Origin: Cristatella mucedo
Taxonomy: Eukaryota > Bryozoa > Phylactolaemata > Cristatellidae
Direction: 5' to 3'
Length of the DNA stretch: 64,000 nt
NCBI GenBank assembly: GCA_009760855.2
Contig: WPIO01000005.1
Coordinates: forward strand, 11,820,001 to 11,884,000
The translations under genes and the position numbers were made by a program. The notes under the pieces are model-generated. The model did no database searches. It had not been told where the DNA came from and saw only the letters and a program-made list of their open reading frames with translations. Shown piece by piece: positions 2,713 to 63,511 of this stretch; positions within the stretch are counted from its first letter, which is position 1, and the number at the start of each line of letters is the position of its first letter.

Positions 2713-2799
2713 GCTCCGAACCATCTTTATTATCTATCACCAGGGTTGCCACATGGCTGCCAATGTTGTTGTTCAATTCAAATTGCTATACGTATACGA

Positions 2800-3190
2800 T
2801 AGCTAAAAAATGAAGCTGTTAGACGTTTACGACATGTATAGCAATACTAATCCAACTGAAGATATAAATTGACTTATACGGTTATGTAAACGCATAGGTG
2901 AACTCACAGTTCATACTTTACGTTGATTTGTGAAGTATTGGCCGGTTATGGAATTTACAAGTGGTTATGGAATTTACAAGTAACAAAGCTGCACTGTAAA
3001 TGAAGCCGTCTCAAAGTAACAAGCATGCATCTTAAGCTGCTAACATGTAAGCTATGTATGCTAATATGTAGCTTCCGGTTTACTTCTGGAATGGATTGAA
3101 TACTATTTTGTTCCTTTTATATGTAGATCGACAGATCTTCCGATTTTATTTAAAAGTATTTGTCTTTTGAAAGGTATGCAAAATGTCTTT
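2800..3190 (+). repeat. Repeat family D, copy 1
   Basis: Unclassified interspersed repeat that aligns by eye with 8140-8490 (+) and with 11815-12440 (minus, interrupted). Shared blocks in order: 'gaactcaca', 'cggttatggaatttacaag', 'gcttccggttta', 'ttccgattttat' and 'tttgtcttttgaaag'. A 19-bp piece is tandemly duplicated at 2944-2962 and 2963-2981. No coding potential is seen. Possibly a non-autonomous DNA transposon. Confidence 0.6.
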
Positions 3191-9499: not shown

Positions 9500-9777
9500 G
9501 GTTTATTTAAATTGAATGGTGACAAAACGAACTTGCTTGTTATGGGAAAACCTAATTCGACTCAGAAATTGGAAAACGTGACACTGAAAATCGGCTTGCA
9601 AGCATATCCTCTAATGAATCTACTTAATCTAAGTGTCGTGTTCCAAAGTGACCCTTCATTAGACGACCACATCAGCTCTACAGTCAAGTCTAACTACTTT
9701 CAGCCCATAACATTCTCAAATTCGGGCTTGTTTAGACAGGAATTCAACATTTAAATTGGTCCATGAATTTGTGACAT
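9500..9777 (+). mobile_element. LINE family A copy 1, left part (interrupted by SINE)
   Basis: RT-region remnant with the family phrases 'KLNGDKTNLLVMGKP', 'VFQSDPSLDDHISSTVKS', then 'HEFVT'. It is interrupted at 9777/9778 by an S2 SINE and resumes at 9903, so 9500-10526 is one CR1/L2-like copy. Several frameshifts; inactive. Confidence 0.85.
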
Positions 9778-9895
9778 AAAATACATCAAGTAAAATTCAT
9801 TCGTATAGCACCCTGTGAGAACTTAAAACTCTATTCAGGCACGCTACATATACCACTGGGCTCGAGCCCACGACCTCGGCCAGACCTTGGTCGGG
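9778..9895 (-). mobile_element. SINE S2 copy a, 5'-truncated, nested in LINE A
   Basis: Minus-orientation S2: LINE-A-like tail ('gtgagaacttaaaactctattcaggc' on the + strand), then the tRNA-like part with 'gggctcgagccca' (B-box region) up to 'ccttggtcgg'. The A-box end of the head is missing (5' truncation). It is flanked by a perfect 7-bp direct repeat GTGACAT (9771-9777 and 9896-9902). The LINE A consensus has a single 'gtgacat' at this point, so this is a target-site duplication. Confidence 0.88.
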
Positions 9896-10526
9896 GTGAC
9901 ATCCCGGCTTGACTTCTGTAACACTGCTTGCTGGTCTACCGGCCCGTGTAATCAGGTGCTTACAGTTGGTACAAAAATAGCTAGGCTCATATGTCGTGAG
10001 CGTCGAAATGGCCACATCACACCACTTCCTGCCGATCTGCACTAGCTCCCAATCGAGCAGAGAATCGACTTCCGAGGTTCTGTCACTCACTTTTTGATCC
10101 CTTCATTCTCTGTCTCCAGCCTACCTATCAGAACTACTTCCCCATCAGGCGAGAAACCGTAAAACCCGCTGTTCTGACTCAAATCGTTTAGCCATACCTC
10201 GTACAAACCTCAAAACCGTTAGAGACCGTATCGTTGGTATGCTCCCAAAGCCTAAAAACTCGGCTTACGAATGTAACAAATGTCCCCTGACATGACATTT
10301 AAAGAAAGCTTCAAACGCACACGTTTGTTACAGCATTTGGTGGGTTTTGGCGATACGTCCTTCGTGTGCATGTATATGCTTATATCATGACTCTTGCTTT
10401 CGGATGTTTTGCACAAACTGTAAGCACCAAACATTTGGTAATGCTTAATATGCAGCATTTGTAACGTGCCTAGAGAGAGGTTCAGTTCTCTGAGGGTACT
10501 ATACCGTTGTATTATTATTATTATTA
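9896..10526 (+). mobile_element. LINE family A copy 1, right part with 3' tail
   Basis: Resumes exactly where the SINE broke the LINE ('gtgacatcccggcttgactt'). Continues through degenerate RT C-terminal sequence and 3' UTR to 'gcctagagagaggttcagttctctgagggt' and the (ATT)n end at about 10508-10526. Many frame disruptions. Confidence 0.85.
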
Positions 10527-12020: not shown

Positions 12021-12191
12021 GGTGAGCCGTGATGGCACACTAGGTAAGGCGGTTGCTTTCACGACCTCGGTCCCGAGGTCGTGGGTTCGATTCCTGCGGT
12101 GGGCGATCCTTTATCGCCTCTGCAAGCGGTGGTGATAGCCGTAAAGGCTCTTCTGTCGCTATACAAAAAGAGGCTGTTTAATCAGCTAGGA
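12021..12191 (+). mobile_element. SINE S1 copy a (near full length, tRNA-derived)
   Basis: Head 'ggtgagccgtgatggcacac taggtaaggcgg' contains an A-box-like 'tggcacactagg' (12032 on). A perfect B box 'ggttcgattcc' lies at 12084-12094. Between them is a 10-bp perfect inverted repeat, 'acgacctcgg/ccgaggtcgt' (12061-12082), as in a long-variable-arm tRNA. The body ends 'ggtggtgatagccgtaaaggctcttctgtcgctatac' and 'ttaatcagcta'. Inserted in repeat D. Confidence 0.85.
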
Positions 12192-12440: not shown

Positions 12441-12490
12441 CTGTTTGCATTCAAGTTCCTTCTCGCTCTTTCTGCTCCAACCTACATAAA

Positions 12491-12628
12491 TGTAATTCAT
12501 TTATATGGCGCCCCAAGAGAACTTAATCTCTATTCAGGCGCTTCACATATGCCTCGGGGCTCGAGCCCACGACCTCAGTCAGACCTTGGTCGGGGCGAGC
12601 ACCTTAACCGCTAGACCAAACCAGCTCG
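12491..12628 (-). mobile_element. SINE S2 copy b (near full length)
   Basis: Minus orientation. The tail reads 'ggcgccccaagagaacttaatctctattcaggcgctt' on the + strand, then 'ggggctcgagcccacgacctcagtcagaccttggtcgg', then 'gcgagcaccttaaccgctagaccaaaccagctcg' (the class-II tRNA-like head reversed). Closely matches copy d at 49317-49455. Confidence 0.88.
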
Positions 12629-12796
12629 TAAAACTTGCCTTCACTGTTGAAATGGGATTATGTAATGCTTGCCAACTTTGTGGACGAGTTTTTTCCTCCA
12701 ATAATAAACGCAGCCTTGAAAAAGCACACAACACCGATGAGGACTGAGTGTTTTGAATTGGCACACTATTATTGGTATATAAAGACATGATGATTC

Positions 12797-13280: not shown

Positions 13281-13348
13281 TGGTGGTGATAGCCGTAAAG
13301 GCTCTTCTGTCACTATACAAAGCAGGGTGATTAATCAGCTAGTATTTA
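13281..13348 (+). mobile_element. SINE S1 copy c (5'-truncated)
   Basis: Only the 3' body: 'ggtggtgatagccgtaaaggctcttctgtcactatac' and 'ttaatcagctagta'. Confidence 0.72.
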
Positions 13349-15680: not shown

Positions 15681-15803
15681 TAATAATAATAATAATAACA
15701 ACAATAATAATAATTCATCTGCATAACACCCTCAGAGAACTTTAAATCTCTTTCTAGGCACTTTACAGATGCTGTATAGAAAGCATTACCAAACGATTTG
15801 TGT
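15681..15803 (-). mobile_element. LINE family A copy 3', left part (split by LINE B)
   Basis: Minus-oriented A tail: (AAT)n, 'cataacaccctcagagaactttaaatctctttctaggcacttta', then 'gctgtatagaaagcattacc'. The remainder continues after LINE B at 16336. Confidence 0.75.
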
Positions 15804-16335
15804 TAATGTAATGTAATGTAATGTATCTCCGTCTGTAAAGACTATGTGGGTGTTACGCAGGAGAGTTTTGTATAGCGCACTCACAGCCTAAGCGGCTTTC
15901 GCTACGCATTCGGTAGCCAACAGACTTCGTCTCACGCAACAAAGAGAAAGTGGGAAGCATAACTGAGTCAGGAGAGCAGTTGAGGTGGTGAGTAGCATAG
16001 AAGTAGCAGCTCAGGACCGCTGAAAAAGATGAGCCATAGTCGGCAGTAGGAGAGTAGTTGTCGTTGCGTAAGAATCGTGGAAGCGAGTTCCACAGTCTAG
16101 GACCTGCAGCGCTAAAGCTTCTGTCGCCAACTGTCTTTAAGCGGAGGAATGGGACAGCTAATTTATTGTCCACACAGGACCTGAGGGCACGAACAGGCTG
16201 AAACTGATGTAGCAGTTCAGCTAGGTACGAAGGAGCCAACCCATGGCGGGCCTTGTGGGTCAGCGTAAGAACTTTGCTCTGTATCCTTTGCTCAACCGGC
16301 AACCATCCTAGCTCTTTCAGCAAAGGTGACACGTG
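15804..16335 (-). mobile_element. LINE family B, 5'-truncated, nested in LINE A
   Basis: Starts with the family end (taatg)n 'tatctccgtctgtaa' and runs through the RT C-terminus ('CECAIQNSPA' stop, 'PRLWNSLPRFLR', 'LGWLPVEQRIQSKVLTLTHK') to 'aaggtgacacgtg'. The open frame continues past 16335 into LINE A sequence only by chance. Confidence 0.9.
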
Positions 16336-16520
16336 TAACATCCGAAAGTAGAAGGCACAATGTAAGCAGGCATATGTGCGAGAAAGACGAATCACAAAGA
16401 CCCAGTAAATGCTGTAATAAACGGTTGCATTTAAGTTTCTTGTTTTAATTTCCTCCTGTCAGGGGATGTTGTGGTGTGTGTCAGTAGTGAGTTCCTGGCT
16501 AAACTTGGAGGCGCCTAAAT
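16336..16520 (-). mobile_element. LINE family A, right part of split copy
   Basis: Resumes A-type 3' UTR/coding antisense: 'agacgaatcacaaagacccagtaaatgctgt', 'cctcctgtcaggggatgtt' and 'agtgagttcctggct'. Diverged. Confidence 0.65.
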
Positions 16521-17915: not shown

Positions 17916-18845
17916 TTATGAAACTTGAAATTAAATGACGATAAAACCGAAGTGCTGCTCATAGGACACCCTAACCGTGTGGCTGGATTAAGAGGCTTTG
18001 CTCTTCTAATAGGTGATGCTATAGGGCGACCATCACCATTTCCAACAGCTGCCTCAATTTTTAGAAGCTTTATTCAGAAGATTGTTTCTACAGCTAGCCA
18101 TCACGTCCGATCCCTATCAAAGGTTAGGAGCTGTCTTCCACAGTTGCTTGCAAACAATTTAGCTAGCTCTTTAGTTCTCTCTTGGCTTGATTGTTGCGAT
18201 TCACCTTTGTCTGGACTGCCAAAGAAAGCAACTATGCCACTGCAGCTGACTATGAATATGGCTGCAAGGCTAGTCTTCAAGTCCCAGAGGTTTGATCATG
18301 TGTCTCCTTTGCTAAAAGAGCTAGGATGGTTGCCGGTTGAGCAAAGGATACAGAGCAAAGTTCTTACGCTGACCCACAAGGCCCGCCACGGCTTAGCTCC
18401 TTTGTACCTAGCTGAACTGCTACATCAGTTTCAGCCTGTTCGTGCCCTCAGGTCCTGTGTGGACAATAAATTAGCTGTCCCATTCCTCCGCTTAAAGACA
18501 GTTGGCGACAGAAGATTTAGCTCTGCAGGTCCTAGACTGTGGAACTTGCTTCCACAATTCTTACGCAACGAGAACTACTCTCCAACTGCCGACTATGGCA
18601 CATCCTTTTCAGCGGTCCTGAGCTGCTACTTTCATGCTACTCACTATCTCAACTGCTCTCCTGACTCTGCTATGCTTCCCACTTTCTCTTTTTTGCGTGA
18701 GACAAAGTCTGTTGGTTACCGAATGCGTACCGAAAGTCGCTTAGGCTGTGAGTGCGCTATACAAAACTCTCCTGCGTAACACCCACATAGTCTTTATGAC
18801 TTTGCGGAGTTACAGACGGAGATACATTACATTAAATTACACTGC
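17916..18845 (+). mobile_element. LINE family B, long open copy
   Basis: Open for 284 codons (17925-18779) through the RT C-terminal half: 'LNDDKTEVLLIGHPNRVAGL' (after the YADD box), 'LPQLLANNLASSLVLSWLDC', 'LSGLPKKATMPLQLTMNMAA' and 'LGWLPVEQRIQSKVLTLTHK', ending 'CECAIQNSPA' stop. Then the short 3' UTR and 'gagatacattacattaaattac' end. A ~25-residue internal block ('ARNLGVVFDN' region) is degraded. The catalytic core is missing by 5' truncation, so it is inactive despite the open frame. Its 3' end abuts the Gypsy-1 integrase C-terminus. Confidence 0.9.
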
Positions 18846-21800
18846 ACAGCCATTCGCTGCCTTTATGGTTCCCGGAGACCAAATTGTTGTCCCGTCATGA
18901 TAATCCCTGTACCCCAATACGCCTAGTTGAAGATGAAGGCACGGTATCACATCTAGTGGCAGGATGCAGCAGCTTCAGGCACGTGCGAAAGTTCAGGCCA
19001 AGCAGCAATGGCGATGGGGTGGACCCGGTCGTAGCGTTTTCAGAGTAGCGGTACTTTACACAGAAAGCGGTTTACGCGCCGCAGGGATCGCCAGTGCCAT
19101 ATGCATTTACCCGCTTGAGATTTTGCGAAAAGCGCTCAGCTAGTCCATTGCTCTGTGGGTGACGAGGTGCCGAAAGAAAGTGCCTGATGCCGTTAGCCTG
19201 TAGAAAACTAGCAAAGTAATGAGAGGTGAACTGGTGCCAGTCGTCAGGCACAACTGCACTGGGTAGACCCAATCGGGCAGTGTCCACCACGTCGAGACTG
19301 TGATGCCAGACGTTGCCTCCCTCACGCGGAACACTTTGGGCCACTTCAAGAACGCATCTACCACTACTAGGAACTAGTGATTGTCAAGTGGCTCAGCAAA
19401 ACCGATGCGAAAACGTCTCCAGCGTCCCGCTGGGTCACTCCACTTATGCGAGCTCGCCGGCGGTGCATGCCTCACTTGGTTGCAATGGGGCAGCGACGGC
19501 ACGCAGATTCTATATATCTGTCTATGCTCCACCACCATACGTAGTTTCTAGCAGTCGCCTTCATTTTAATTACGCCGAGATGAACGTCGCTAAGCTCATG
19601 CACGAGCTGGCCGCGGAGGGAAGTGAGTGCGTCTCGTGCCCCAAAGCAGACGCCCACCGCGTAATGCCAGCTCCCGTCTGCAGTTTTAGTATGGGGTCGT
19701 CTTGGCCGCTGAGGAATTTCTGGCCGGAAACCCCATCAGCATTGTGTCAAAAGTAGCAGACACTGTTAGGTTGCTTCTAAGCGCTGCCCAAACCACTTGC
19801 ATAGTCACAGGAAACATAGAAAAAAAAATGTTCAACGTAGAAAAAGCAGTCTCTGGACAGGGTCTTCCTTTTGTGGCAACGGTAGTCGCTACATAGCATC
19901 AGCGTTAGCAAGATCTTCTAACCGCCTGTACTCGATGCTATAGGTATATGCAGATAACACCGCAGCCGAGCGATGCATACGCATGGCAGCAATTGGCGGT
20001 CTTAGGGTTGGGGGATAGTCATGAGTGGGCAGTGCTCGGTAAGCAGCAGGAACGCCCGTGCATACAAATATAGAGCAAAACACACCAAGCTGAAAATTAG
20101 TGCCGAGGCAATGCCTTCTCAATCTACGAACAGTTTTTATGACTAGTAGATAGAGTACGGTAAGCGAAGGCGATGGGTCTCTCCAGTCCGTGGGTGATAT
20201 CGATGAGATAAAACAGCACCCAGTCCATAAGATGACGCGTCGTAAACTAGCACGAACATTTCGTTGGGGCTGTATGATGCCAGGACGCGTTTGGAGCTAA
20301 TTATCTCCTTAACTTTTATGAAAGCCGGTTGACATGGAACAATCAATAGCCACATACTTTCCTTTTGAAGCAATTCGTACAAGGGGTGCTATACCTGTGC
20401 CAGGTTGGGCAAAAACTTGGGATAATATTGCACCATCCCAATAAACGACCGGAAGCCACTGACGTCCGTTGGCGGCGGGGCGTTTTTTTAGCTGTCACTT
20501 TGTCCTCCATGGGGTGCATGCCAATATTGTTTATCTGATGCCCAAGGTGTACTATAGACTGTTTTAAGAAGGATAACTTGGAGGCCGTGCCTTGCAGTTA
20601 TGCCAACACCGAAGCAAGATTATGCATGTGAGAAGTTCGGTCATTTCCGGTCACAAAAATCATCTCATCCTGGTATCACTAGGCAGTCCAGGCAACAAGT
20701 GATCCACAGCCCTTTGGTGAATGGTGGGAGCGGAGGCAACAGTAAATGGCAAGCGGTTATATTTAAACAAACCCTTGTGCGTAGTAATGGTAACAAAAGC
20801 TTTGGACGCTTCCTCAATCTCGATCTCCGTAAATTCAGAGATAGGTCCAGCTTTGAAAATAAGGTCTCTCCATTTAGTTTCTCCTGTGAGTCGTCTATCG
20901 AGAGCATTGGATATGAGACACTCATTAGCTGAAAGTGTCGCGGTGCTCTTTAGTCTTCGCAGAGGCGGATCGAGCCGTCGGATTTAACTATTGGTACTAT
21001 TGGAGTCACCCATTCGCTATGCTCGACCCGTGAAATTATCCCCTCAGAGAACAATTTGTTTAGCTCAGACTCAAACTTCTCGCGTATCGCAAATGGCACT
21101 TTTCGTTTAGTATGCGTGGGTACAGCATTTTCTCAGACATGCAACTTTGACTTGAAGCTGCTGAACTTACCCAGCGTCTGGTGAAAGATATCGTCATGCT
21201 ATTGTAGAAGAGCGTCAAAGTCTCGATGCTCGGTCAATAAATTCGCAGAAACTATCCTGCTGATATAAAGGTCGAAAGCCGCCGTCCATTCTCTGCCAAG
21301 CAGCAGTACAGTGGTTTCGGTAAGGACAACAAGTTGAGCCTGGACCCTTTTTTATTGGTATTCAGCCTGAGGATGACTTACGCCAACAGGAGATATTTCC
21401 ACAGTAGCACCATACGACCGTTGTGTAATAGTCGTTGGCTCTAGGGACAGGCGAGAACAGAGGCGCTCATACTCGTGCAAGGATAGCGCAAAAAATGCTA
21501 GATCTCATGTCGAATTCCGTGTGAGCGGGTTTTCCTTCAACATGGACTCGTATCATGCACTGGGTCGCACTTCCCGCAGAATGAATGAAAACGACGTCGT
21601 CTGACACTTTTCTGACATCAGCGGAGTTGTTGAGCTAATTGTTGATCTTGTTCTCAGTTGCTCTCAATTTTGCTCCCGCTCGCATTCGATGCTGATCGTC
21701 ACACTTTTCGGAGATGACCTTTAATCAACAGACGTGGCATACGCTGCGGTAATGAGGGCATCTGCGCCGTTCGTGGTGCGTTGAACCGAAAGAGGCGCAT

Positions 21801-21940
21801 TCGCCAGCGATTGCTTTGGAATGCCGCGTGCTGATCTTGTCAACGGGCAAAGGTTCGGCAGTCCAATGCTAGGAACCATTTTCAATCGCTTCAACCTCTT
21901 CACACGAATATTATACCGCGGTCACAATGTTCAACGCTAC
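18846..21940 (-). pseudogene. Ty3/Gypsy-1 pol relic (zinc knuckle/protease, RT, RNase H, integrase)
   Basis: Minus-strand pol in pieces, in the order expected of Ty3/Gypsy (PR-RT-RH-INT). About 21720-21940: knuckle-like remnant ('KGHLRKV'). About 21360-21620: protease-like ('VHVEGKPAHTEFDM'). About 20665-20925: RT with 'LFSKLDLS' and a degraded 'CLDCLVIPG'. About 20143-20382: RNase H with 'FVLVYDASSYGLGAVL'. About 19472-19657: integrase zinc-binding 'HLGVIKMKATARNYVWW...CRRC'. About 19072-19364: integrase core, with an Asp in 'VDAFLKWPKVF', a degraded second acidic site ('VPDDWHQFTS') and a Glu in 'NGLAERF'. About 18846-19070: C-terminal part. Many stops and frame changes; inactive. The left LTR is missing; LINE B lies there. 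Confidence 0.85.
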
Positions 21941-21994
21941 CTCCAGTGTCAGACTTTTCACGTCAGCAGCCTTTACCGAGTAGCTGCGTGCCGT

Positions 21995-23749
21995 AGCTTT
22001 TGGGAGGCAGAGGCCGCGGCCCGCCCCGTAGACGCACAGAGATTGCAACGCGCCCTACTCAAGGCGTCGCCGCCGAGAGAGCAGCCCCTGCACCCGATTC
22101 TCCTGCTCCCACTCTCCCCTTCGGAAGTGGCGAGGAAACTGAAGAAGGCCAGCAACACCTCCCCTGGAGCGGACCGGCTAGAATACCGGCACCTCAAGGC
22201 GGTGGATGCACAAGCAACTCTCCTGGCGACCATCCTCAACGGCTGCCTAGAGTTTGGCGACGTGCCCCCCCCCCGCGTGGAAGACGGGCCACACGGTCCT
22301 GATCCACAAGAAAGGAGATCCGAAGGTGCCGGGAAACTTCCGGCCAATCTCGCCCCTGCCAACAATATATAAACTCTTGTCGGGCTGCTTGGCCACGAGG
22401 CTGTCGCTGCTGCTGCGGGAGAACAATGTGCTGTCCCCACAGCAGAAAGGCTTTCTTCCAGGCTGTGAAGGCTGTCAAGAGCAGACCTTCCTCGTCGAGT
22501 CGGCCCTGAGGGATGCGGCCAAAAGGAAGCGCACCTTGTGCGGAGCCTTTTTGGACCTTCAGAATGCATTCCCCAGTGTGCCACACGAGGCGCTCTACTC
22601 CACTCTTTCCCACTTGGGCGTGGACCAGCGCTTTGTAGGCTTCGTCCGCAACATATATGCCAGGCCTCTATCGCGCTGAGAGTTGGCTCGACCACCCTGG
22701 ATCCGTTCCCAGCTGCTGCGGGCGTCCGCCAGGGCGACCCACTCTCACCCATCCTTTTTGATGTGGTGATGGAGCCGCTTGTCAGAAGGCTAGCGGCTGG
22801 GGCGGAGAGGCATGGATATGCACTGGACTCGGCCAAGATCTCTGTTTGCGCCCTGGCCGACGATCTGGCCATTTTTTCGAACTCGCCGCGCTCCCTTCAG
22901 CGCCAGCTCGATCGAGCACATCGGGCTGCCTCGAGCATAGGCCTCAAGTTCAGGCCGGAAAAGTGTAGGACGCTGGTGCGCTACCCTGCGGCGTCGGAGA
23001 GCCTGGTCTTCACCATCGCCGGCTCCCCGCTTCCAATGCTACGAGACGAGGAGGCGCACCTATACCTAGGTGCCCCCCAGGGCTTTGCTTACCCTCGGGC
23101 GGAGGTAGAGACGGCGATCTCCCTCCTCACCCGGGATGTAGCCCTGCTTCAGACGTCCCTCCTGGCTCCGTGGCAGAAGATGGACGCCCTCCGCACGTTT
23201 CTTATGCCCAGACTGGAGTATCTGGGATGTGCGAAATGGCTCCGAAAGAAGCTCCTGGTCCCAGCCGACAGAGCGATTAAGGACTTCTGCAGGTCGGTTT
23301 GCTCCCTTCCGGACAAAGCCACTCTGGGCTTCTTCCACGCCTCACGCTCCAGTGGTGGAATTGGCCTTCTCCCGCTCTCGCAGGATGTGGACATCCTTCG
23401 CGCCACGCAGGCGTGCCGCATGCTGTCCTGCCCGGACTGGAAGGTGGCAGGAGTTGCTCTGGAAGGGCTTGATGGCGCCATAAAAGTACTTAAAGGGTCG
23501 CCCTCGGACGAGGCCAGAACCATCTTCCTGTCGGGCGGTTCCTTTGAACATGCCGTGGGTGCTGGATCAAAGTCGCTCTGGTCTGAGGCCCGCCAGGCGC
23601 TCAAACGCCTGGGTGTTGGTGCCCAGTACGCCGATGGAAAGATTCAGCTCCACTGGATCGAAGGGGACCATGAGCGCCCTCAGTTCTCCCCCTCCGAAAT
23701 GGTCTTCACCATCAGACAGGATCTGGCAAAGTTATGGGCGGTATATTAG
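21995..23749 (+). pseudogene. RT domain of the R2-like LINE (2 frameshifts)
   Basis: Reverse transcriptase for target-primed reverse transcription. Three consecutive frames cover it: about 21995-22280, 22254-22679 and 22625-23749. The catalytic Asp in 'FLDLQNAF' and the Asp pair in 'LADDLAIF' are intact. The last frame (about 375 codons) extends through the thumb region ('LMPRLEYLGCAKWLRKKLL', 'LGFFHASRSSGGIGLLPLSQ') to 'FTIRQDLAKLWAVY' and a stop created at the inversion boundary. The C-run at 22264-22274 is the likely first frameshift site. Confidence 0.85.
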
Positions 23750-24222
23750 CGCGAGAGGCGTGCCACCTCCAGCGCGAGCTCGCCGTTGTCGAACGGGACC
23801 GCTACGTCGACCACTACCGCGTAGGCTCCCGTGTCGATGACAAGGTCTGGGCGACGATGCTGGGTCGGGTCGAGCTCATGGTGCTGGTCCACTCGGGCGT
23901 GTCTCCTTAGTGCCCAAGGCAGCGCCTCCAGGAGCCGGTACAGGACCGCGTCATGCCGTTTAGTGATGGCAACCATCATGCTTGGGCAATTGTTCAGGAC
24001 GTGCGGCAGCGTCTCGCGCTGACCGCAGCCCTTGCGGCAGAGGCGCTCCGACGTGGGGTCAAACCTGGCCCTGGCAGCGGCCACCGGCAGGAGGTCCAGT
24101 CTGGCACGGAAAACAAAGCGCCAAGCAGCAAAAGTGACACCGAGGCCCGAAAAGAGGAAGTGGGTGTGGTTGCTGTGTCTGTCTGTAGCCAGACAGCGAG
24201 CCACTTTCCCCTGATCCTGAAA
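23750..24222 (-). pseudogene. Inverted segment: zinc finger and endonuclease N-half of the R2-like LINE
   Basis: Opposite orientation to its flanks. In order on the minus strand: 'FQDQGKVARCLATDRHSNH', 'HFLFSGLGVTFAAWRFVFRARLDLLP', a CCHC-type motif 'CRKGCGQRETLPHVLNNCP', then the PD-(D/E)-like endonuclease part 'RRPDLVIDTGAYAVVVDVAVPF' and 'LALEVARLSR'. The + strand flanks carry the preceding (RT) and following ('KYIELVDELRV') parts of the same protein. Turning the segment round would restore the normal domain order. Confidence 0.85.
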
Positions 24223-24224
24223 GG

Positions 24225-24902
24225 AAGCTCCTCAAATACATCGAGCTGGTGGATGAGCTTCGCGTCCGAGGACGCCAGGTTGAGCACTGCGCCTTCATCG
24301 TGGGCTCCCTCGTTGCCTGGCACCCTGAGAACGAGAGGACCCTGGCAGCCCTCAGGGTGAGCCAGCGCCACCGCAGGCTTCTCAGGAAGCTCTGTGTAGC
24401 GGACGCCATTAATGGCTCGGCCAGGGTCTGGCTGCAATTTGTGGGCACTACAGACAGCCCACAAGAGGGAGCGCGGCCGACACATGACCCGCCAGCGCCT
24501 GGAGACAGTGAGGCGTCGCCCACAACGCACTGGACGGACGCCCCACCTATCTCTGGATTGGAAAGGCATAGAGGAAAGCTGCCCCAGCCCGTGACTACAC
24601 CACCCGAGATAGCTCCCCTCCAGAGTCCAGCCGGCTCGGTAGAGCGGGACGTTCGCGTGAGAGCTCCAGAGAGAGCCGGTCAGTCACAGCCAGTAAGGCT
24701 CAGTGGCGCCGCCCTCCAAAGAGCAGCGGCTCAGTACACTGTGACACGCCCTCCCGCGCCGCGCGCGACCGTGGTGGACCCTTGGAGGAGGGCTACGCCG
24801 ATCAGGCTCGGAGTGCCCCAGCAAGCAAGCGCGACACCGGAGGTCCGGCCACCTCCAGATCGCGATGCTGGCTCCACCCGAGAGGTGTCTTGGAGGACCT
24901 AG
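24225..24902 (+). pseudogene. C-terminus of R2-like LINE protein plus Pro/Arg-rich tail
   Basis: Begins 'LLKYIELVDELRVRG', then 'VEHCAFIVGSLVAWHPENER', 'RHRRLLRKLCVADAINGSARVW', the well-conserved C-terminal part of REL-endonuclease LINEs. The frame stays open about 150 more codons in Pro/Arg/Ala/Thr-rich sequence to the TAG at 24900-24902. Such a long tail is not usual in the family. It may be chance read-through of GC-rich 3' UTR. Confidence 0.75.
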
Positions 24903-26849: not shown

Positions 26850-27000
26850 CCAGGAGTTAAGGTGTCGCTCTGCACGACCGAGGTCATTGGTTTGAACCCT
26901 GCAGCTGAGCCATAATTTATTGCCAACTGCAAGCGGTGGTGATAGTCAGTAAGGTTCTTCTGCCGCTATACAAATGAGTCTATTTTAAATCAGCCGAGAC
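26850..27000 (+). mobile_element. SINE S1 copy e
   Basis: Sense S1 with 'ggagttaaggtgtcgctctgcacgaccgaggtcattggtttgaaccctgc', then 'caactgcaagcggtggtgatagtcagtaaggttcttctgccgctatac' and 'aaatcagccga'. Confidence 0.76.
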
Positions 27001-30569: not shown

Positions 30570-30728
30570 CCCGGGTCTCAGTCCAGGGGTAAGGCGGTTT
30601 GTGCTTCATGACCCAGGTCGTGGGTTCAAGTCCTACTGTGGGCAATCCTAAATTTCCGACTGCAAGCTGAGATGAAAGCCGTTACGCCTCTTCGAATGCT
30701 ATAGAAATAAGGCTATTGAGTCAGTTAA
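30570..30728 (+). mobile_element. SINE S1 copy f (variant head)
   Basis: 'gtctcagtccaggggtaaggcggtttgtgcttcatgacccaggtcgtgggttcaagtcctactgtgggcaatcc' with B box 'ggttcaagtcc', then a diverged body 'agccgttacgcctcttcg'. Shares the 'cccaggtcgtgg' head variant with copy b. Confidence 0.75.
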
Positions 30729-31118
30729 ACTTTGCATTATAAAGTCCCAAAGACTAACTGGGTGTTACGCATCACAACTTACAGAAGCCAACTCAAAGGC
30801 TAATCGGTTTCAGCCTGTCTCACTAAAAAAGTTACGACAAATGCAGTGCCTGTAAAGGATGAGTCTTTTTAGACGCGTGACATAAACTGGCGAAGCTTGC
30901 GCATCCAAGCGCAGCCAATAAGTCATGAAGGTCTCAATCCCCGACACACGCAGTAATGTTGATGACTGCGCATGGCGGGAATTGAGAACGCAATTAAATC
31001 TGTAACGAGTACATGTCCTTAACATATAGCTATGTATTCCACAGCACGGTAGGGTCACATTTTTTCACCAACGGAAATGCAATACCACTCCTCAATATGC
31101 ATATATGTATCTATATAA

Positions 31119-31275
31119 TTTATTTGTATAGCGTCCTAAGAAAAACCTAATCTCTATCAACACGCTTCACCTATGCCGCTGGGTTCGAGGCCATGATCTT
31201 GGTCATCAAATGCATGCCCTCTGACCTCGGTCATCGAAGATAAGCATCTTAACACCCGAGCGAAATCAGGGCGCC
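31119..31275 (-). mobile_element. SINE S2 copy c (diverged)
   Basis: Minus S2: 'tttgtatagcgtcctaagaaaaacctaatctctatcaacacgcttcacctatgccgctgggttcgaggcc', then a duplicated 'cttggtcatc/ctcggtcatc' segment and 'agcatcttaacacccgagc'. Confidence 0.7.
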
Positions 31276-31570: not shown

Positions 31571-32158
31571 AATTATAATAGTAGTAATAATGCACTTGAT
31601 AAAGCACCCTCAGAGAACTCAATATCTTTCTATGCGCTTTAGATTTGCTGCAAAGGGAAACGCAACTGAATGGTGAGCAATATCATGCTTGATGAACAAC
31701 ATGAACAACGTGGTTAGGAGTGACGTGCACAGGGTAAGCAGGCAAGTGTGGTTAATGGCAGCATGCACAGTGTCAACATGCATAAGCACATGAGGGACGA
31801 ATCACAGGGACCCACTCAATGCTGTCCTAAATAGGTGTGTTTTTAAGCTCTTTTTAAATGTGGTCAAGTCAGGGGATGTTCAGACGCAAGTCGGGAGTGA
31901 GTTCCAGGCTTTGGGAGCGTACGCACTAAATGCACGGTCTCCAAAGGATTTGAGGTTTGTACGAGGTATTGGTAGACTGTTGGATTCCGAAAAGCGGGTG
32001 GTACGATGCTTGGCCTGGTTGGGGAGTAGATCTGAGAGATAGGCTGGAGCCAAAGAATGAAGTGACCTAAATGTGTGCGACAAAACCTTTAAGTTAATCC
32101 GTTGCTTGACTGGTAGCCAGTGCAGGTCGGCGAGAGGTGGTGTGATGTGGCAACTGCG
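31571..32158 (-). mobile_element. LINE family A copy, 5'-truncated
   Basis: From the (ATT)n end through 'cttgataaagcaccctcagagaactcaatatctttc', the 3' UTR and the RT C-terminal ORF ('YAPKAWNSLPTCV', 'LKSFGDRAFSAYAPK', 'LHWLPVKQRINLKVL'). Breaks off at about 32158, at the edge of CpG-rich DNA. Confidence 0.9.
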
Positions 32159-34873: not shown

Positions 34874-35485
34874 AATAATAATAATAATAATATTGCACTT
34901 GATAAAGCGCCCTCAGAGAACTTAATCTCTTTCTAGGCGCTTTACATTTGCTGCAAAGTGATACGCAATATAATAGTAAGTAAAATCATGCTTGAAAAAC
35001 AAACAAAATGAATAACATGGTTAGGGGTTACATGCACTGGGTCAGCATGCAAATGTGGTTAGTGGCAGCATGAACAGTGTCAGCACGCATAAGCACATCG
35101 AGGACGAATCACAAGGACCCACTAAATGCTGTCCTAAATAGGTATGTTTTTAAGTTTCTTTTAAATGTGGTCAGGTCAGGGGATGTTCTGATGCAGGTCG
35201 GGAGGGAGTTCCAGGCTGTGGGAGCATACGAGCTAAATGCACGGTCTCCAAAGGATTTAAGGTTTGTACGAGGTATTTCTAGACTGTTGGATTCCGAACA
35301 GCGAGTGGTACGATGCTTTGCCTGATGGGGTAGTATATCTGAAAGATAGGCTGGAGCCATAGAATGAAGAGACCTAAAAGTGAGCGACAAAACCTTGAAG
35401 TCAATACGTTGCTTGACTGGTAACCAGTGCAGGTCGGCGAGAAGTGGAGTAATGTGGCAACTGCGACGCTCACGACAGACAAGCC
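34874..35485 (-). mobile_element. LINE family A copy, 5'-truncated
   Basis: (AAT)n then 'attgcacttgataaagcgccctcagagaacttaatctctttc' and the RT C-terminal frame (35109-35510 minus: 'LLADLHWLPVKQRIDFKVLS', 'DRAFSSYAPTAWNSLPTC'), ending near 'cgctcacgacagacaag'. Nearly intact over its length, so rather young. Confidence 0.92.
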
Positions 35486-38236: not shown

Positions 38237-38332
38237 GCAATGGCCAATCCTTTATTGTTCACTGCAAGCAGTGTTGATAGTCGCTCGGGGTCTTCTGCCG
38301 CTACATCAGTGGCGATGTTGGATCAGCTAACT
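38237..38332 (+). mobile_element. SINE S1 copy h (5'-truncated)
   Basis: 'gcaatggccaatcctttattgttcactgcaagcagtgttgatagtcgctcggggtcttctgccgctaca' and 'ttggatcagcta'. Confidence 0.72.
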
Positions 38333-40421: not shown

Positions 40422-40546
40422 TGTATTCACGACCCAGGTCTTGGTGTTGAGTCATGCAGAGGCAATCCTTTGTTGCCCACTGGAAGCGTTGGTGATAGCC
40501 GTTCAGGGTCTTCTGCCGCTATACAAATGAAGCTGTTAAGTAAGAT
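40422..40546 (+). mobile_element. SINE S1 copy i (head truncated)
   Basis: 'attcacgacccaggtcttggtgttgagtcatgcagaggcaatcc', 'gttggtgatagccgttcagggtcttctgccgctatac', 'gctgttaagta'. Confidence 0.75.
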
Positions 40547-42924: not shown

Positions 42925-44261
42925 ACATGGGTAGAGTGTCTCTGCTTGTTTTGCTCGATCTTTTGGCAGCTTTTGATCCCATCGATCCCAAAGTTCTTCA
43001 AGAGCGCCTCTAGTCTCGCCTGGGCTTCACTGGTACTTTTCTGCAGTAGCTCAGGTCCTATCTCAGTGGGAGACTCCAGAGTATTGACGTGAATGGACAA
43101 AGATCATCTGGAGTACCTCTGAAATATGGCGTACCTCAGGGCTCCGTGCTGGGTCCGGTTCTTTTCACGGTTAATGCTCTCCCTCTTGCTGATGTGATTG
43201 CCAAGCACAATCTAGGCTTTCACTTCTATGCGGATGACACTCAGTTGTACCTTTGCTTTGATCCCTCCCAGCCTTCGAGCACCTCAAATTCTCTCAACTC
43301 ACTTGCTGCATGTATTGATGGCATCCGCACATGGATGGCAGCAAATTTTCTAACTAAATTATGATAAAACTAACTTGCTAGTTATGGGCAAACCAAGTGT
43401 GATTCACAAATTGAAAAGACTGAAGCTCAAAATTGGCTCTGCCAGCATATCTCCAGTTGAATCAGCTCGAAATCTATGTGTTATATTCCAAAGCGACCAC
43501 TCGTTAGACGACCATATCCGCTCCACAGTCAAATCTGCCTATTTTCAGCTACATAACATTGCTAAAATTCGGGCTTGTTTAGATAAGGATACCACATCTA
43601 AGTTGGTCCATGCATTCGTGACATCTCGCCTCAACTTCAGCAACTCAATGCTCGCTGGCCTACCGGCATGGGCGATCAGGCGATTGCAGCTGGTGCAAAA
43701 CTCTGCACCTACGCTTGTCTGTCGTGAGCTTCGCAGTTGCTACATTACTCCACTTTTCGCCGACCTGCACTGGCTACCAGTCAAGCAACGGATCGAATTC
43801 AAGGTTTTGTCACTCACTTTTTGGTCACTTCATTCTTTGGCTCCAGCCTATCTCTCAGATATACTCCCCCACCAGGCCAAGCATAGTACCACCCGCTTTT
43901 CGGAATCCAACAGTCTACAAATACCCCATACAAACCTCAAATCCTTTGGAGACCGTGCATTTAGTGCGTATGCTCCCAAAGCCTGGAACTCCCTCCCGAC
44001 TTGCGTCAGAACATCCCATGACTTGACCACGTTTAAAAAGAAATGAAAATACGCCTATTTAGGACAGCATTTAGTTTGTCCCTGTGATTCGTCCTTGATG
44101 TGCTTATGCATGCTGACACTGTGCATGCTGCCACTAACCACATTTGCATGCTGACCCTGTGCATGTCACCCCTAACCATGTTATTCATTTTGTTTGTTTA
44201 TCAAGCACGAGTTTACTCACTATTTCAATCGCATTTCCCTTTGCCGCAAATGTAAAGCGCC

Positions 44262-44343
<82 letters not shown>

Positions 44344-44396
44344 AAGTTCTCTGAGGGCGCTTTATCAAGTGCATTATTATTATTATTAATATTATT
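42925..44396 (+). mobile_element. LINE family A, longest RT-containing copy (~1.47 kb)
   Basis: Covers most of the RT: 'DLLAAFDPIDPKVLQERL' (motif A, active-site Asp), 'YGVPQGSVLGPVLFTVNALP' (motif B), '[13 protein letters not shown]' (motif C, Asp pair) and 'MAANF', then after a one-base frame change 'TNLLVMGKPSVIHKL', 'ISPVESARN' and on to 'LLADLHWLPVKQ'-type sequence and 'TCVRTSHDLTTFKKK' stop (44044). The 3' UTR holds an (AG)n array and ends with the A tail and (ATT)n. Only a few disruptions: stops near 43012 and 43048 and the shift near 43365. Confidence 0.93.
44263..44341. repeat. (AG)n microsatellite inside LINE A tail
   Basis: 39 AG units placed exactly where other copies read 'gcgcctagaaagagattgag'; flanks are normal tail ('gtaaagcgcct' and 'atcaagttctctgagggcgc'). 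Confidence 0.95.
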
Positions 44397-47733: not shown

Positions 47734-49010
47734 TATGTATGTATCTCCGTCTGTAAGATCACAAAGCCACAAAGACTATGTAGGTGTTACGCAGGAGAGT
47801 TTTGTATAGCGAACTCACAGCCTAAGCGGCTTTTGGCACGCACTCGGTAGCCAACAGATTTCATCTCACGCAACAAAGAGAGAGTGCGAAGCATAGCAGA
47901 GTCGGGAGAGCAGTTGAGGTATTGAGTAGCGTGGAAGTAGCAGCTCAGGACTGCTCGAAAGGATCGGCCATAGTCGGCAGCAGGAGAGCAGCTGTCGTTG
48001 CGTAAGAATCGTGGAAGCGAGTTCCACAGTCTAGGACCTGCAGAACTAATGCTTCTGTCGCTAACGGTCTTAAAGTGGAGGAACGGAACAGCTAATTTAT
48101 TATCCATACAGGATCTGAGGGCGCGAGCAGGCTGAACTGGTGCAGCAGTTCAGCTAGGTAGGAAGGAGCCAAGGCGTGGCAGGCCTTGTGGGTCAGCATA
48201 AGAACTTGGGTCTGTATCCGCTGATCAAACGACATCCATCCTTGCTCTTTTAGCAAAAAAGACACATGGTCAAACCTCTGGGATTTTCAAACTAGCCCTG
48301 GAGCCAAAGTCATAGCAATCTGCAGTGCAATTAATTGCTTTTTTTAGCAGCACAGCCAAAAGGAAATTAAAAGAATCAAGCCGTGGCAGAACTAAGAAGC
48401 TATTATTTTTTTCAAGCTACCGCGGAAGACAGCTCCTAATCCGAGAGAGGGATCGGACGTGATATCTAGCTGCAGAAGCAGTCTTCAGAGTGAGGCTTTT
48501 AAAGTTTATGCAGTTGTCGAAAACGACACCTAAATTTCTAGCACCTGGTGATGGTCGCACACTAGCATCATCTATTAGAAGAGCAAAGCCTTCTAATCCA
48601 GCTACACGCTTAGGGTGTCCTATGACCACCAGTTCAGTTTTATCGTCATTTAGTTTCAAGAAATTTCCCGACATTCAGGATCAAATGTCGGCAAGGCAAG
48701 CATTCAGTTTATTAGTTGCTGCAGCAGTTTCCGACGGTTTGAATGACAAATACAGCTGAGTATCATCAGCATAAAAGTGAGATCCTATTCCATGGGCCTT
48801 AATTACTTTTCTCAGTGGTTGAGTATAAATGGAGAGTAGCAAGGGACCGAGGACGGACCCTTGAGGGACTCCACACGTCACCGGTCTCGTGGGTGAGACC
48901 TGATCCCTACACGACACACGGATTGAGCAATCAGACAAGTACGAGTTAAACCTATGAATACGGCCTAAAGTTCTCTCATGAGAAAAGTGAAAAGTGATCG
49001 CTGAAATAGT
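47734..49010 (-). mobile_element. LINE family B, longest copy (~1.28 kb, RT core present)
   Basis: Minus strand in order: 'SYLSDCSIRV', 'CGVPQGSVLGPLLLSIYTQP' (motif B), '[15 protein letters not shown]' (motif C), '[10 protein letters not shown]', 'FLKLNDDKTELVVIGHPKRV', 'ARNLGVVFDNCINFKSL', then the C-terminal region and 'CEFAIQNSPA' stop. Three or more frame changes. The endonuclease is missing. Confidence 0.92.
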
Positions 49011-49043: not shown

Positions 49044-49312
49044 GTTCGATTGCACTCAAAGCCTGGAACTCATCCCGACTGACTGACGTTTGGACATTCT
49101 CTGTCTTGACGACATCTAAAAAGAAGCTGAAACGTACTTGCTCCTCCATTTGCATTGCTTCCTCCATTGCATTTTCTTGGTCAGCAAGAAATTTCTTGTT
49201 CGCGCTCATGAGGGCTGAAACTGTCCAAGTTATTACTAACCAATTGATATTCTTACTTTACAGAACATGCAAAGTGCCTGGAAAGAGAGTTCCATATTCC
49301 AACACACGTAAT
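49044..49312 (+). mobile_element. LINE family A, short diverged copy
   Basis: 'ALKAWNSSRLTD', 'LTTSKKKLKRT', 'RNFLFALMRAETVQ' (the usual '...VLMRADTV' region), then 'catgcaaagtgcctggaaagagagttcc'. Ends just before SINE S2 copy d. Confidence 0.72.
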
Positions 49313-49316
49313 TATT

Positions 49317-49452
49317 GCCGAGCTGGTTTGCTCTAGCGGTTAAGGTGCGCGCTCCGACCAAGGTTGGACTGAGGTCGTGGGCTCGAGCCCCGAGGCATAT
49401 GTGAAGCGCCTGAATAGAGATTAAGTTCTCTTGGGGCGCTATCTAAATGAAT

Positions 49453-49455
<3 letters not shown>
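49317..49455 (+). mobile_element. SINE S2 copy d (full length)
   Basis: Class-II-tRNA-like head 'gccgagctggtttgctctagcggttaaggtgcgcgctccgacc', then 'gaggtcgtgggctcgagcccc' (B-box region), then the LINE-A-like tail 'gtgaagcgcctgaatagagattaagttctcttggggcgctat' and 'aaatgaatta'. Followed at once by (TA)n. Confidence 0.9.
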
Positions 49456-52327: not shown

Positions 52328-52925
52328 ATAATAATACACTTGATAAAGCGCCCTCAGAGAACTCGATCTCTTTCTAGGCGCTTTACATTTGCTGCAAAGG
52401 AAACACGATCGAATTTTGAGTGGTATCATGCTTAATAAACCACATAAATAACATGGTTAGGGGTGACATGCACCGGGTCAGCATGCAAGTGTGGTTAGTG
52501 GCAGCATGCACAGTGTTAGCACGCATAAGCCCTAAAAGGACGAACCACAGGGACCCACTAAATGCTTTCATAAATAGGTGCGTTCTTAATTTCTTTTCAA
52601 ATGTGGTCAAGTCAGGGGATGTGATGCAAGTCGGAGTGAGTTCCAGACTGTGGGAGTATACGAACTAAATGCATGTTACCAAAGGGTTTGAGGTTTCTAC
52701 TTGGTATTGGTGAACACTTAGCTTCCGAAAAGCGGTTGGTACGATGCTTGGCCTGGTGGGGGATTAGATCTGATAAATAGGCTGGAGCCAAAGAATGAAG
52801 AAACTTTGCTTGACGGGTAGCCATGAATGTCGGCGAGAAGTGGTGTGATGTGGCGACTGCCACATTCACTACAGACAAGCGTAGCTGCAACAAAGCTTTC
52901 ATTGGCTAGGATACGTCTCGAGATA
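52328..52925 (-). mobile_element. LINE family A copy, 5'-truncated
   Basis: Third A tail in a row, then 3' UTR and RT C-terminal remnants ('FEKKLRTHLFMKAFSGSL', 'RQAKFLHSLAPAYLSDLIPH', 'FATLHHFSP'-like frames), degraded toward 52920. Confidence 0.88.
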
Positions 52926-53889: not shown

Positions 53890-53986
53890 TTTCCTTTGCA
53901 GCGTATGTAAAGCCCCTAGAAAGAGATTGAGTTCTCTGATGGCGCTTTATCAAGTGCATTATTATTATTATTATTATTATTATTAT
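53890..53986 (+). mobile_element. LINE family A tail only
   Basis: 'gcagcgtatgtaaagcccctagaaagagattgagttctctgatggcgctttatcaagtgcattatt' with (ATT)8. Extreme 5' truncation. Confidence 0.88.
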
Positions 53987-56562: not shown

Positions 56563-57945
56563 AGCTTTTGATTCTATCGATCACAAAGTTCTTCTAGAGC
56601 GACTCTCATCTCACCTGGGCATCACTGGTACTTCTCTGTAATGGTTCAGGTCCTGTCTCAGTGGGACTCCAGAGTATTGACGTGAATGAACAAACATCAT
56701 CAGAGGTATCTCTGAAATACGGGTTACCTCAGGGCTCCGTGCTAGGTCCGGTTCTTTTCACGGTTGGTACTCTCCCTCTTGCTGATGTGATTGCCAAGCA
56801 CAATCTAGGCGTTCACTGCTATGCGGATGACATTCACTTGTACCTTTGCTTTGATCCCTCCCAGCCTTCGAGCACCTCGAATTCTCTCAACTCACTTGCT
56901 GCATGTATTGATGACATCCGTACATGGATGGCAGCAAATTTTCTGAAACTCAACAATGATAAAAAAATACCTTACTAATTATGGGCAAACCTAGTGTGAT
57001 TCACAAATTGGAAAGGCTTACGCTCAAAATTGGCCCTGCCAGCATATCTCCAGTTGAATCAGCTCGAAATCTAGGTGTTATGTTCCAAAGTGACCTTTCG
57101 TTAGACGATCACATCAGCTCCACAATCAAGTCTGCCTACTTTCAGCTAATTAACATTGCTAAAATTTGGGCTTGTTTAGATAAGGATACCACATCTAAGT
57201 TGTCCATTTATTTGTGACATCCCGTCTCGACTTCTGTAACTCACGCTTGCTGGCCTACCGGCAAGTGCCATCAGGCGATTACAGCTGGTGCAAAACTCTG
57301 CAGCTAGGCTTGTCTGTCGCGAGCGTCGCAGTTGCTATTTTACTCCACTTCTCGCCGACCTGCACTGGCTACCAGTCAAGCAACGGATTGACTTCAAGGT
57401 TTTGTCGCTCACTTTTAGGTCACTTCATTCTTTGGCTCCAGCCTATCTCTCAGATCTACTCCCCCATCAGGCCAAGCATCGTACCACCCGCTTTTCGGAA
57501 TCCAACAGTCTACAAATACCCCGTACAAACCTCACATTCTTTGGAGACCGTGCATTTAGTGCGTATGCTCCCAAAGCCTGGAACTCCCTCCCGACCTGCG
57601 TCAGAATATCCCATGACCTGACCACATTTAAAAGGAACTTAAAAACATACCTATTTAGGACAGCATTGAGTGGGTCCCTGTGATTCGTCCTTCACATACT
57701 TATGCGTGCTGACACTGTGCATGCTGCCACTAACCACAGTTGCATGCTGACCCTGGGCATGTCACCCCTAACCATATCATTCTTGTTGTTTATCAAGCAT
57801 GATGTTACTCACCATTTAATCAAGTTTCCAGCAAATGTAAAGCGCCTAGAAAAAGATTGCGTTCTCTGAGGGTGCTTTATCAAGAGCACTGTTATTTATT
57901 TATTTGTTATTTTTATCTATTATCAAGTGCATTATTATAGCTCTA
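56563..57945 (+). mobile_element. LINE family A, long RT-containing copy
   Basis: Starts in RT motif A ('AFDSIDHKVLLERLSSHLGI'). Then 'YGLPQGSVLGPVLFTVGTLP' and 'VHCYADDIHLYLC' (motif C), 'KPSVIHKLERLTLKIGPASI', 'VMFQSDLSLDDHISSTIKSA', and the C-terminal half complete to 'KTYLFRTALSGSL' stop (57681). The tail ends in '(tta)n...ttatcaagtgcattatta'. Frame changes near 56965, 57200 and 57290. Well preserved. Confidence 0.93.
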
Positions 57946-59814: not shown

Positions 59815-60826
59815 GTGTAATTTATCTCCATCTGTAACTCAACAAAGTCATAAAGACCATGTTGGTGTTGCGCAGGAGAGTTTTGTATAGCGCACTCACA
59901 GCCTAAGAGGCTTTCGGTACGCATTCGGTAGCCAACAGACTTCGTCTCACTCAAGAAAGAGAAATTGGGAAGCATAGCAGAGTCAGGAGAGCAGTTGAGG
60001 TAGTGAGTAGCATAGAAGTAGCAGTCGAGGACCACTGAAAAGGATGAGCCATAGTCGGCAGTAGGAGAGTAGTTGTCGTTGCTTAAGAATTGTGAAAGCG
60101 AGTTTCACAGCCTATGACCTGCAGAGCTAAAGCCTCTGTCGCCAACAGTCTTTAAGCGGAGGAACGGAACAGTAATTTATTGCCCACACCGGACCCGAGG
60201 GCGCGAAGGGGCTGAAACTGGTGCAGCAGTTCAGCTAGGTACGAAGGAGCCAAGCCGTGGCGGGCCTTGTGGGTCAGCGTAAGAACTTTGTCCGTTGCTC
60301 AACCGGCTGCCATCATAACTCTTTTAGCAAAGGTGACGCGTGGTCAAACCTCTGGGACTTGAAGGCTAGCCTTGCAACCATATTTCTAGCCAGCTGCAGT
60401 AGCCTTAGCTGCTTTCTTTGGTAGCCCAGCCAAAAGGGAATTACAATAATCAAGCCGATATAGAACTAAGGAGCTAGTTAAATCTTTTGCAAGCCACTGT
60501 GGAAGACAGCTCCTAATCTTGGATAGGGATCGGACCTGATGGCCTTACCTAGTGAGCCATTACGTCTCACCTTATGACCACCAGTTCAGTTTTATTATCA
60601 TTTAGTTTCAAGAAATTTTTCCACATCCAAGATCAAAAGTCGGCAAGGCAAGCATTCAGTTTCTCAGTTGCTGCAGCAGATTCCGACGGTTTGAATGACA
60701 AATACAGCTGAGTATCGTCAGCATAAAAGTGATATCCTATTCCATGGGCCTTAATCACTTTTCCCTGAGGTTGGATGTAAATGGAGAACAGCAAGGAACC
60801 GAGTACAGACCCTTGAGAGTTTTCAC
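59815..60826 (-). mobile_element. LINE family B, nested in LINE A
   Basis: Starts 'gtgtaatttatctccatctgtaac'. C-terminal ORF pieces ('CECAIQNSPA' stop at left), 'CLADF' and '[17 protein letters not shown]' (motif C) near 60700, then '[16 protein letters not shown]' up to the break. An internal deletion around 60540-60570 removes the 'ARNLGVV' region. Confidence 0.92.
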
Positions 60827-61369: not shown

Positions 61370-61459
61370 TACTCCCCCTGCAGCAAATGTAAAGCTCCTA
61401 GAAAGAGATTGAGTTCTCTGAGGGCGCTTTATCAAGTGCGTTATTATTATTATTATTAA
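61370..61459 (+). mobile_element. LINE family A tail only
   Basis: 'gcagcaaatgtaaagctcctagaaagagattgagttctctgagggcgctttatcaagtgcgttatt' and (ATT)5. Confidence 0.85.
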
Positions 61460-63340: not shown

Positions 63341-63511
63341 GGTGAGCCGTGATGGCACACTAAGTAAAATGGTTGCTTTTCACGACCTCGGTCCCGAGGT
63401 CGTGGATTCGAATCCTGTATTGGGCGATCCTTGATTGCCACTGAAAGCGGTGGTGATGGCCGTAAAGGCTCTCCTGTCGCTATGCAAAAGAGGCCGTTAA
63501 GTCAGCTAGTA
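63341..63511 (+). mobile_element. SINE S1 copy k (near full length)
   Basis: Almost the same as copy a: 'ggtgagccgtgatggcacacta', the palindrome 'acgacctcggtcccgaggtcgt', B box 'gattcgaatcc', then 'ggtggtgatggccgtaaaggctctcctgtcgctatg' and 'ttaagtcagctagt'. Lies in the intron 5' of the calcium channel exon. Confidence 0.85.

Follow-up and report, generated by a model that had tools for sequence, protein, structure and literature searches.

A SINE with a tRNA-like head and a 3′ hairpin tail shared with a LINE lineage in Cristatella mucedo

In stringent SINE/LINE pairs, the tail common to both elements is the place where the LINE reverse transcriptase (RT) binds. SINE/LINE pairs in which the LINE is of the CR1 or L2 type are numerous (PMC3747384). 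For the L2 LINEs of zebrafish, a published study describes a region before the RT that binds the 3′ hairpin, with its residues numbered, and a loop that decides specificity; a conserved part of the protein region is proposed to read the stem and a variable part the loop (PMC4176376).

A comparable arrangement is found in the window, the whole 64,000-nt stretch of DNA analysed here, between a SINE family, S2, and a LINE family, LINE A. The favored reading, to which we assign a probability of roughly 0.78, is that the LINE A lineage was the source from which S2 captured its hairpin and would mobilise S2 in trans. The literature searches listed no publication that could be tied to the host or to S2/LINE A, which does not in itself show that S2 is unpublished.

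The S2 copy at 49317–49455 is present as the preliminary description had it, with a LINE-derived tail directly behind a tRNA-like head. The following S2 features lie in the window:

49317–49394, plus strand: tRNA-like head of S2, with A-box-like GCTCTAGCGGTTAAGG and B-box-like GGCTCGAGCCC (sequence)
49395–49455, plus strand: LINE-derived tail of S2, a composite hairpin and the start of the A/T-rich 3′ end (alignment, folding)
12488–12630, minus strand: another well-preserved copy of S2 (94.9% over 136 nt; core match, profile)
9785–9915, minus strand: diverged S2 copy with a damaged head, inside a run of LINE protein matches (profile)
31118–31275, minus strand: S2 of an older type, its head carrying an insert and its tail keeping the GCGT/ACGC pairing (profile)

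Four copies had been claimed, and a profile built from all four recovered each of them in the window at E < 1e-34; two carry the exact tail core and two are diverged. The 28-nt core matches without mismatch at 49404–49431 (+) and 12516–12543 (−) and gave no match in 100 shuffles, and the copies at 9785–9915 and 31118–31275, not matched by the core within three mismatches, were recovered by the profile. At lower scores the profile found a row of LINE A tails, over the tail part only, and copies of another SINE over most of the length. Plus-strand LINE protein matches at 9512–10274 enclose the minus-strand copy at 9785–9915, a likely nested insertion. A LINE A tail relic at 49252–49288 (+; E 1.4e-5, profile) lies 28 nt upstream of the S2 copy at 49317–49455, and at one genomic locus (L002) an S2 stands directly behind the tail of another, both hinting at insertion of S2 into the A/T repeats of older tails. 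Target-site duplications of at least 8 nt are not demonstrable, being found for 2 of 39 S2 copies against a mean of 0.61 and a maximum of 4 under shuffled pairing.

The head carries GCTCTAGCGGTTAAGG and GGCTCGAGCCC, which we take to be A-box and B-box motifs, giving S2 the tRNA-like head with both boxes that is expected of a tRNA-derived SINE. It had been described as a class-II tRNA-like head; its tRNA-like character stands. ARAGORN found no tRNA in the window, and the Rfam tRNA model none at E 10 for two S2 copies. Recognition by tRNA finders is not required of SINEs. A class-II tRNA box pattern occurs at 27 places in the genome, and the 14 that were fetched yielded nine tRNA genes with ARAGORN, four of which (one Ser, three Leu) were compared with the head. 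Scores for the S2-I head were 12.5–15 over these genes and 14–15 for the three tRNA-Leu genes; such values were reached by 1 to 5 of 1000 shuffles. The S2-II head is weaker (6 to 71 of 1000), and that of the older type seen at 31119 is not significant (42 to 771 of 1000). Between the D-arm GGTTAAGG and the B box, S2 has a spacing of 42, compared with 42 in Leu UAG, 46 in Leu CAG and 47 in Ser; the value of 31 for Leu AAG is an artefact, the motif having been found in the anticodon arm. Box spacing and the modest tRNA-Leu match would thus indicate, and do not prove, a class II head, the comparison having been made with class II tRNAs alone.

That the S2 tail resembles the LINE A tail had been noticed earlier, and the likeness extends further than the string then quoted. 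The best local alignment with LINE A consensus tails spans 61 columns and scores 33.5 against the consensus of 16 A-type tails aligned from the window, 35.5 against six young and 37.5 against ten older ones, far above 1000 shuffles with means near 8 and maxima of 15.5–16. The shared region starts at GCA(A/T)ATGT, about 9 nt ahead of the quoted string, and continues into the ATTA with which the repeat is written; the LINE-derived tail of S2 is about 61 nt long rather than the 39 first given. In the window the LINE A tail string matches at six places within three mismatches, with no match in 100 shuffles. These places are listed below with an older tail resembling class A′ (GCATATGT...CTATACAAATG) and the protein used in the genome search:

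34904–34943, minus strand: LINE A tail with hexaloop TTAAGT as in S2 (string match, folding)
52345–52384, minus strand: LINE A tail (string match, folding)
31601–31640, minus strand: LINE A tail (string match)
53909–53948, plus strand: LINE A tail with (ATT)n (string match)
57839–57878, plus strand: LINE A tail (string match)
61391–61430, plus strand: LINE A tail with (ATT)n (string match, folding)
15711–15780, minus strand: older A-type tail GCATCTGT...GATGAATTATT, A′-like, with a fold no better than shuffles (z −0.75) (folding)
43354–44043, plus strand: C-terminal part of LINE A ORF2, query of the genome search (protein match)

Terminal (ATT)n repeats are found on S2-II and some other S2 copies, including 16 of 20 sequences retrieved from a list of 1,829 places; many S2 copies end in AATTATATTT or similar and lack clean (ATT)n. 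At 44254–44363 (+), the AGAGA stem of a LINE A tail has expanded into a long (GA)n microsatellite, the remainder of the tail being recognisable.

Several other retroelements lie in the window. LINE B (2098–2588 −, 15836–16458 −, 17922–18824 +, 47739–48659 −, 59816–60538 −) has a C-terminal protein 37% identical to that of LINE A and a different tail with TTACA-type repeats at its end; it was considered as the partner of S2 and rejected, its tail score of 5.5 lying below the shuffle mean of 6.5. A second SINE-like family occurs on the plus strand at 12102–12177, 13282–13344, 26909–26984, 30642–30717, 38244–38319, 40462–40537 and 63423–63498. Its head is tRNA-Leu-like, scoring 20.5 with tRNA-Leu(UAG) against a shuffle maximum of 16.0, and its tail is a two-part hairpin ending in GCTATACAAATGA (z −2.22). 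A third retroelement at 21785–24231 has an RT frame at 22469–23749 (+; RVT_1 1.3e-15) beside a minus-strand frame at 23746–24231, which we take to resemble the endonuclease end of an R2/NeSL-type element.

In the fold predicted for the class consensus tails, an irregularity separates a lower stem from one around GCGCC/GGCGC, which is followed by an internal loop, an AGAGA/UCUCU stem and a hexaloop. The stem in the GCGCC/GGCGC region is predicted to have 7 bp in S2 and A′ and 10 bp in young LINE A, and the internal loop to be 4×2, except in one young consensus (A-young1) where it is 2×2 and the inner stem 6 bp. The predicted S2 hairpin accordingly combines a 7-bp stem, a 4×2 internal loop, the AGAGA/UCUCU stem and the hexaloop UUAAGU. 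The proposal that the inverted agttctct...agagatt portion forms a hairpin is thereby supported, in a longer form that adds the flanking GCGCC/GGCGC stem and the lower stem. Fold z values of the consensus tails are −4.95 (S2-II), −5.04 (S2-I), −5.01 (A-young1), −5.68 (A-young2) and −5.87 (A′); those of single copies are −3.35 and −3.96 for S2 and −4.84, −2.70, −4.15, −0.75 and −2.78 for A types. When the structure is laid over 20 tails of the window, pairing holds in 86.6% of cells; when it is slid, the figure is 32.5–64.1%. Covariation on the same tails is hardly above shuffles, the score being reached by 39 of 500 and the two-sided pair changes by 171 of 500, a weakness expected for dead copies. 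Pairing thus appears kept in the modelled hairpin and is not proven by compensation.

An A·A mismatch is common to the predicted folds of S2 and A′, and at this position young LINE A has an A-U pair, with a bulged U further down; the lower stem of young LINE A (CTTTATCAAGTG) also differs from that of S2. The hairpin starts close to the end of the S2 head, which suggests that S2 took it complete and without anything upstream of it. Hand counts of the first 100 listed places gave, for S2 (of 3,451), 86 UUAAGU, 12 UUUAGU and 2 UUGAGU loops, and for LINE A (of 17,252), 54 UUAAGU, 44 UUGAGU and 2 others (one T and one C at the varying base). The same commonest loop in S2 and LINE A among these places fits recognition of both by one protein. 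The stringent-type partnership with the LINE A lineage that had been put forward is supported by two features: the 3′ ends of the SINE and of a LINE from its own genome are homologous, and a hairpin is common to both tail RNAs in predicted folds with weak covariation.

Searches of the assembly containing the window (572,011,866 bases, 688 contigs) found the S2 tail pattern at 3,451 exact places, the LINE A tail pattern at 17,252 exact places and the A′ pattern at 3,971 places within two mismatches, all counts being of pattern occurrences rather than elements; each backwards control gave 0. In viral and prokaryote contigs the tail patterns had 0 places. The 139-nt S2 query produced 723 first-look candidates, and the 40 scored gave 42 matches, 94–96% identical with the exception of the window copy and two short pieces. 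For the LINE A C-terminal protein there were 151,526 first-look candidates; among 150 that were scored, identity is never below 86% and open frames reach 870 aa, from which we infer that LINE A was recently active.

The preliminary description had S2 carrying the tail of LINE A. The lineage holds, but the nearest class of LINE tail is the older A′ and not young LINE A in 65 of 66 S2 matches. A′ was chosen partly by a letter common to S2; on the 3′ half, which played no part in the choice, A′ is best in 66 of 66. These comparisons used 29 young LINE A loci of two types (19 + 10; L040–L068) with the best-scoring tail of each, 20 A′ tails (L093–L112) picked by a pattern in the 5′ half, and 66 S2 profile matches in fetched loci, a few of them weak (to about 16 bits). 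Divergence is 16.7% in the A′ sample (75-nt windows with some flank) and 2.0–2.4% in young A tails, and from the full-length consensus it is 3.0% for S2-I (n = 7) and 2.5% for S2-II (n = 8). These values are a rough guide to age, since groups were picked by closeness or pattern, the S2 groups by tail motifs and S2-I also by closeness to the window copy. A homogeneous S2 subfamily with GGATAG, loop UUUAGU and clean ATT repeats was recognised by eye (L069–L072, L074–L076, L078, L079); script grouping of this subfamily gave 8 copies with 2.5% mean divergence.

The better fit of A′ lends some weight to an alternative that we regard as unlikely but the strongest of those considered: that S2 is driven by an L2-type LINE outside the sample, or by a side branch of A, with a tail nearer to its own, and that its match to young LINE A reflects only the common descent of LINE tails. 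The second half of the S2 internal loop (TTGGGG or TTAGGG) is indeed found in LINE tails, at 4 of the 20 places fetched from 1,829 (L085–L088), so that there are, or once were, LINE branches closer to S2 than the A′ consensus is. These four tails also end in CTATA(C/T)AAATG like S2; half-loop and end together form the pattern by which they were chosen. S2-II, moreover, is only about 2.5% diverged, whereas A′ copies look old. Against such a driver, the first half of the S2 loop (GAAT) in a LINE context, searched genome-wide with one 3′UTR string that could miss other 3′UTRs, has one place at one mismatch, which reads GAAAAG and is no true case. The element at L085 itself looks old, because the protein upstream is broken and 61–80% identical to LINE A. 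A pool of young LINEs combining an AAAGAG first half with the CTATACAAAT end was also considered and rejected: of 61 exact places 20 were fetched, and by eye 8 are S2 (TTG/TTA) and 12 LINE-type, the latter scattered and having no tRNA-like head; L085 is a further LINE place among the 61. An S2 head with a LINE-type half-loop occurs at 140 places at up to one mismatch, one of them exact (GGAAAG), and among the 100 listed places there is no CCTAGA and no sign of tail exchange. The simplest account of these sequences would be capture from an A′ side branch carrying the second half-loop, followed by separate evolution, in which S2 may be read as having kept CTATA(C/T)AAATG as LINE A moved on to CTTTATCAAGTG.

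It is still less probable that S2 is a dead passenger, captured from A′, amplified only while A′ was active and not recognised by the LINE A of today. Such a history would agree with A′ as the nearest tail class and with a lower stem unlike that of young LINE A, but S2-I and S2-II, at 3.0% and 2.5% over their full length, are less diverged than the A′ tails at 16.7%, on ages that are rough. A coincidental or convergent likeness between two palindromic ends rich in A/T and GA might draw on the simplicity of the AGAGA/UCUCU inner stem and on the score that the S2 tail reaches with that of the other SINE, 15.5, which equals the maximum among 1000 shuffles. This explanation is refuted at the sequence level by the 61 aligned columns, the absence of shuffle matches, the same commonest hexaloop and outer stem, and the dissimilar LINE B.

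Under the favored reading of capture from, and mobilisation by, the LINE A lineage, S2 would be a tRNA-derived SINE with a Leu/Ser-like head that took over in full the 3′ hairpin of this lineage, an L2-type LINE, at the older A′ stage. It would be transcribed by pol III, and its RNA would display the composite hairpin of LINE A, namely the GC-rich stem, internal loop, AGAGA/UCUCU stem and mostly UUAAGU hexaloop followed by A/T repeats. The LINE A ORF2 protein would bind this hairpin, probably via the basic region before the RT domain, and copy S2 in trans through target-primed reverse transcription.

One LINE A copy (L113) has an 861-aa frame (817–3399) with an RT domain (RVT_1, E 5.8e-31) and a below-cut-off match to Exo_endo_phos_2 (E 5.9e-4). 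An overlapping earlier frame matches Exo_endo_phos, also below cut-off (E 4.9e-4), the endonuclease start being out of frame in this one copy. The best solved proteins for the LINE A frame are LINE-1 ORF2 entries (8sxt, 2.2e-16) and 8c8j, an RNA-directed DNA polymerase (1.1e-15). At the zebrafish offsets, LINE A has W +1, K +7, K +10, R +14, E +17, K +18 and K +21, including all four basic positions (+10, +14, +18, +21) whose mutation abolishes binding in zebrafish (PMC4176376). It departs from the zebrafish pattern in having L for P at 0 and Y for W at +20. W +20 is needed for binding in ZfL2-2, and W +1 is not (PMC4176376); Tyr at +20 therefore counts against hairpin binding by LINE A. The stretch is covered by 5 of 30 LINE A loci, 4 of which keep all basic positions, the other having E at +7. 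By its residue pattern, LINE A would carry the conserved tail-binding region before the RT that marks the L2 clade.

A further, tentative suggestion, held at somewhat less than even confidence, is that S2 may be a still-moving molecular fossil. The lower stem and 3′ flank of ancestral A′ would persist in it beside a half-loop acquired by S2 itself, whereas in LINE A, its driver, the lower stem has changed. The core that both mostly kept, of GC stem, AGAGA/UCUCU stem and UUAAGU loop, might then be the minimal element read by the LINE A protein.

S2/LINE A is a further pair in the already known class of stringent SINE/LINE pairs. Like UnaSINE1/UnaL2 of eel and other L2/CR1-type pairs, it joins a tRNA-derived head to a 3′ tail common with a LINE of the same genome (PMC3747384; PMC4176376). 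UnaL2, however, ends in TGTAA repeats (PMC3747384) rather than ATT, and the UnaL2/HAmo loop is reported as GGAUA (PMC2653535), whereas that of S2/LINE A is mostly UUAAGU on a two-part stem. Unlike in UnaSINE1-type pairs, the S2 head runs directly into the tail. As in the HAmo SINE/HAmoL2 pair of cyprinid fish, a structured tail is common to both partners and several SINE subfamilies correspond to one LINE (PMC2873951); the HAmo tail of about 42 bp is one base off its LINE (PMC2653535), in contrast to the S2 tail of about 61 nt, which resembles an older LINE branch more closely than it does the young one. ZfL2-1 and ZfL2-2 of zebrafish resemble LINE A, known from sequence alone, in the tail-binding region before the RT and differ from it in the Pro at offset 0 and Trp at 20 that are Leu and Tyr in LINE A (PMC4176376). 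What S2/LINE A likely adds to this class is a separation between the LINE branch that supplied the tail, A′ or a side branch, and the likely present driver, young LINE A, with the hairpin core mostly preserved in both. The nearest LINE tail of a SINE, this suggests, need not belong to the LINE now active, so that tail identity, used on its own, can name a partner that is no longer current. With thousands of naturally occurring variants of a single RNA hairpin, divided between two families that have diverged since capture, the pair also narrows what the LINE protein must recognise.
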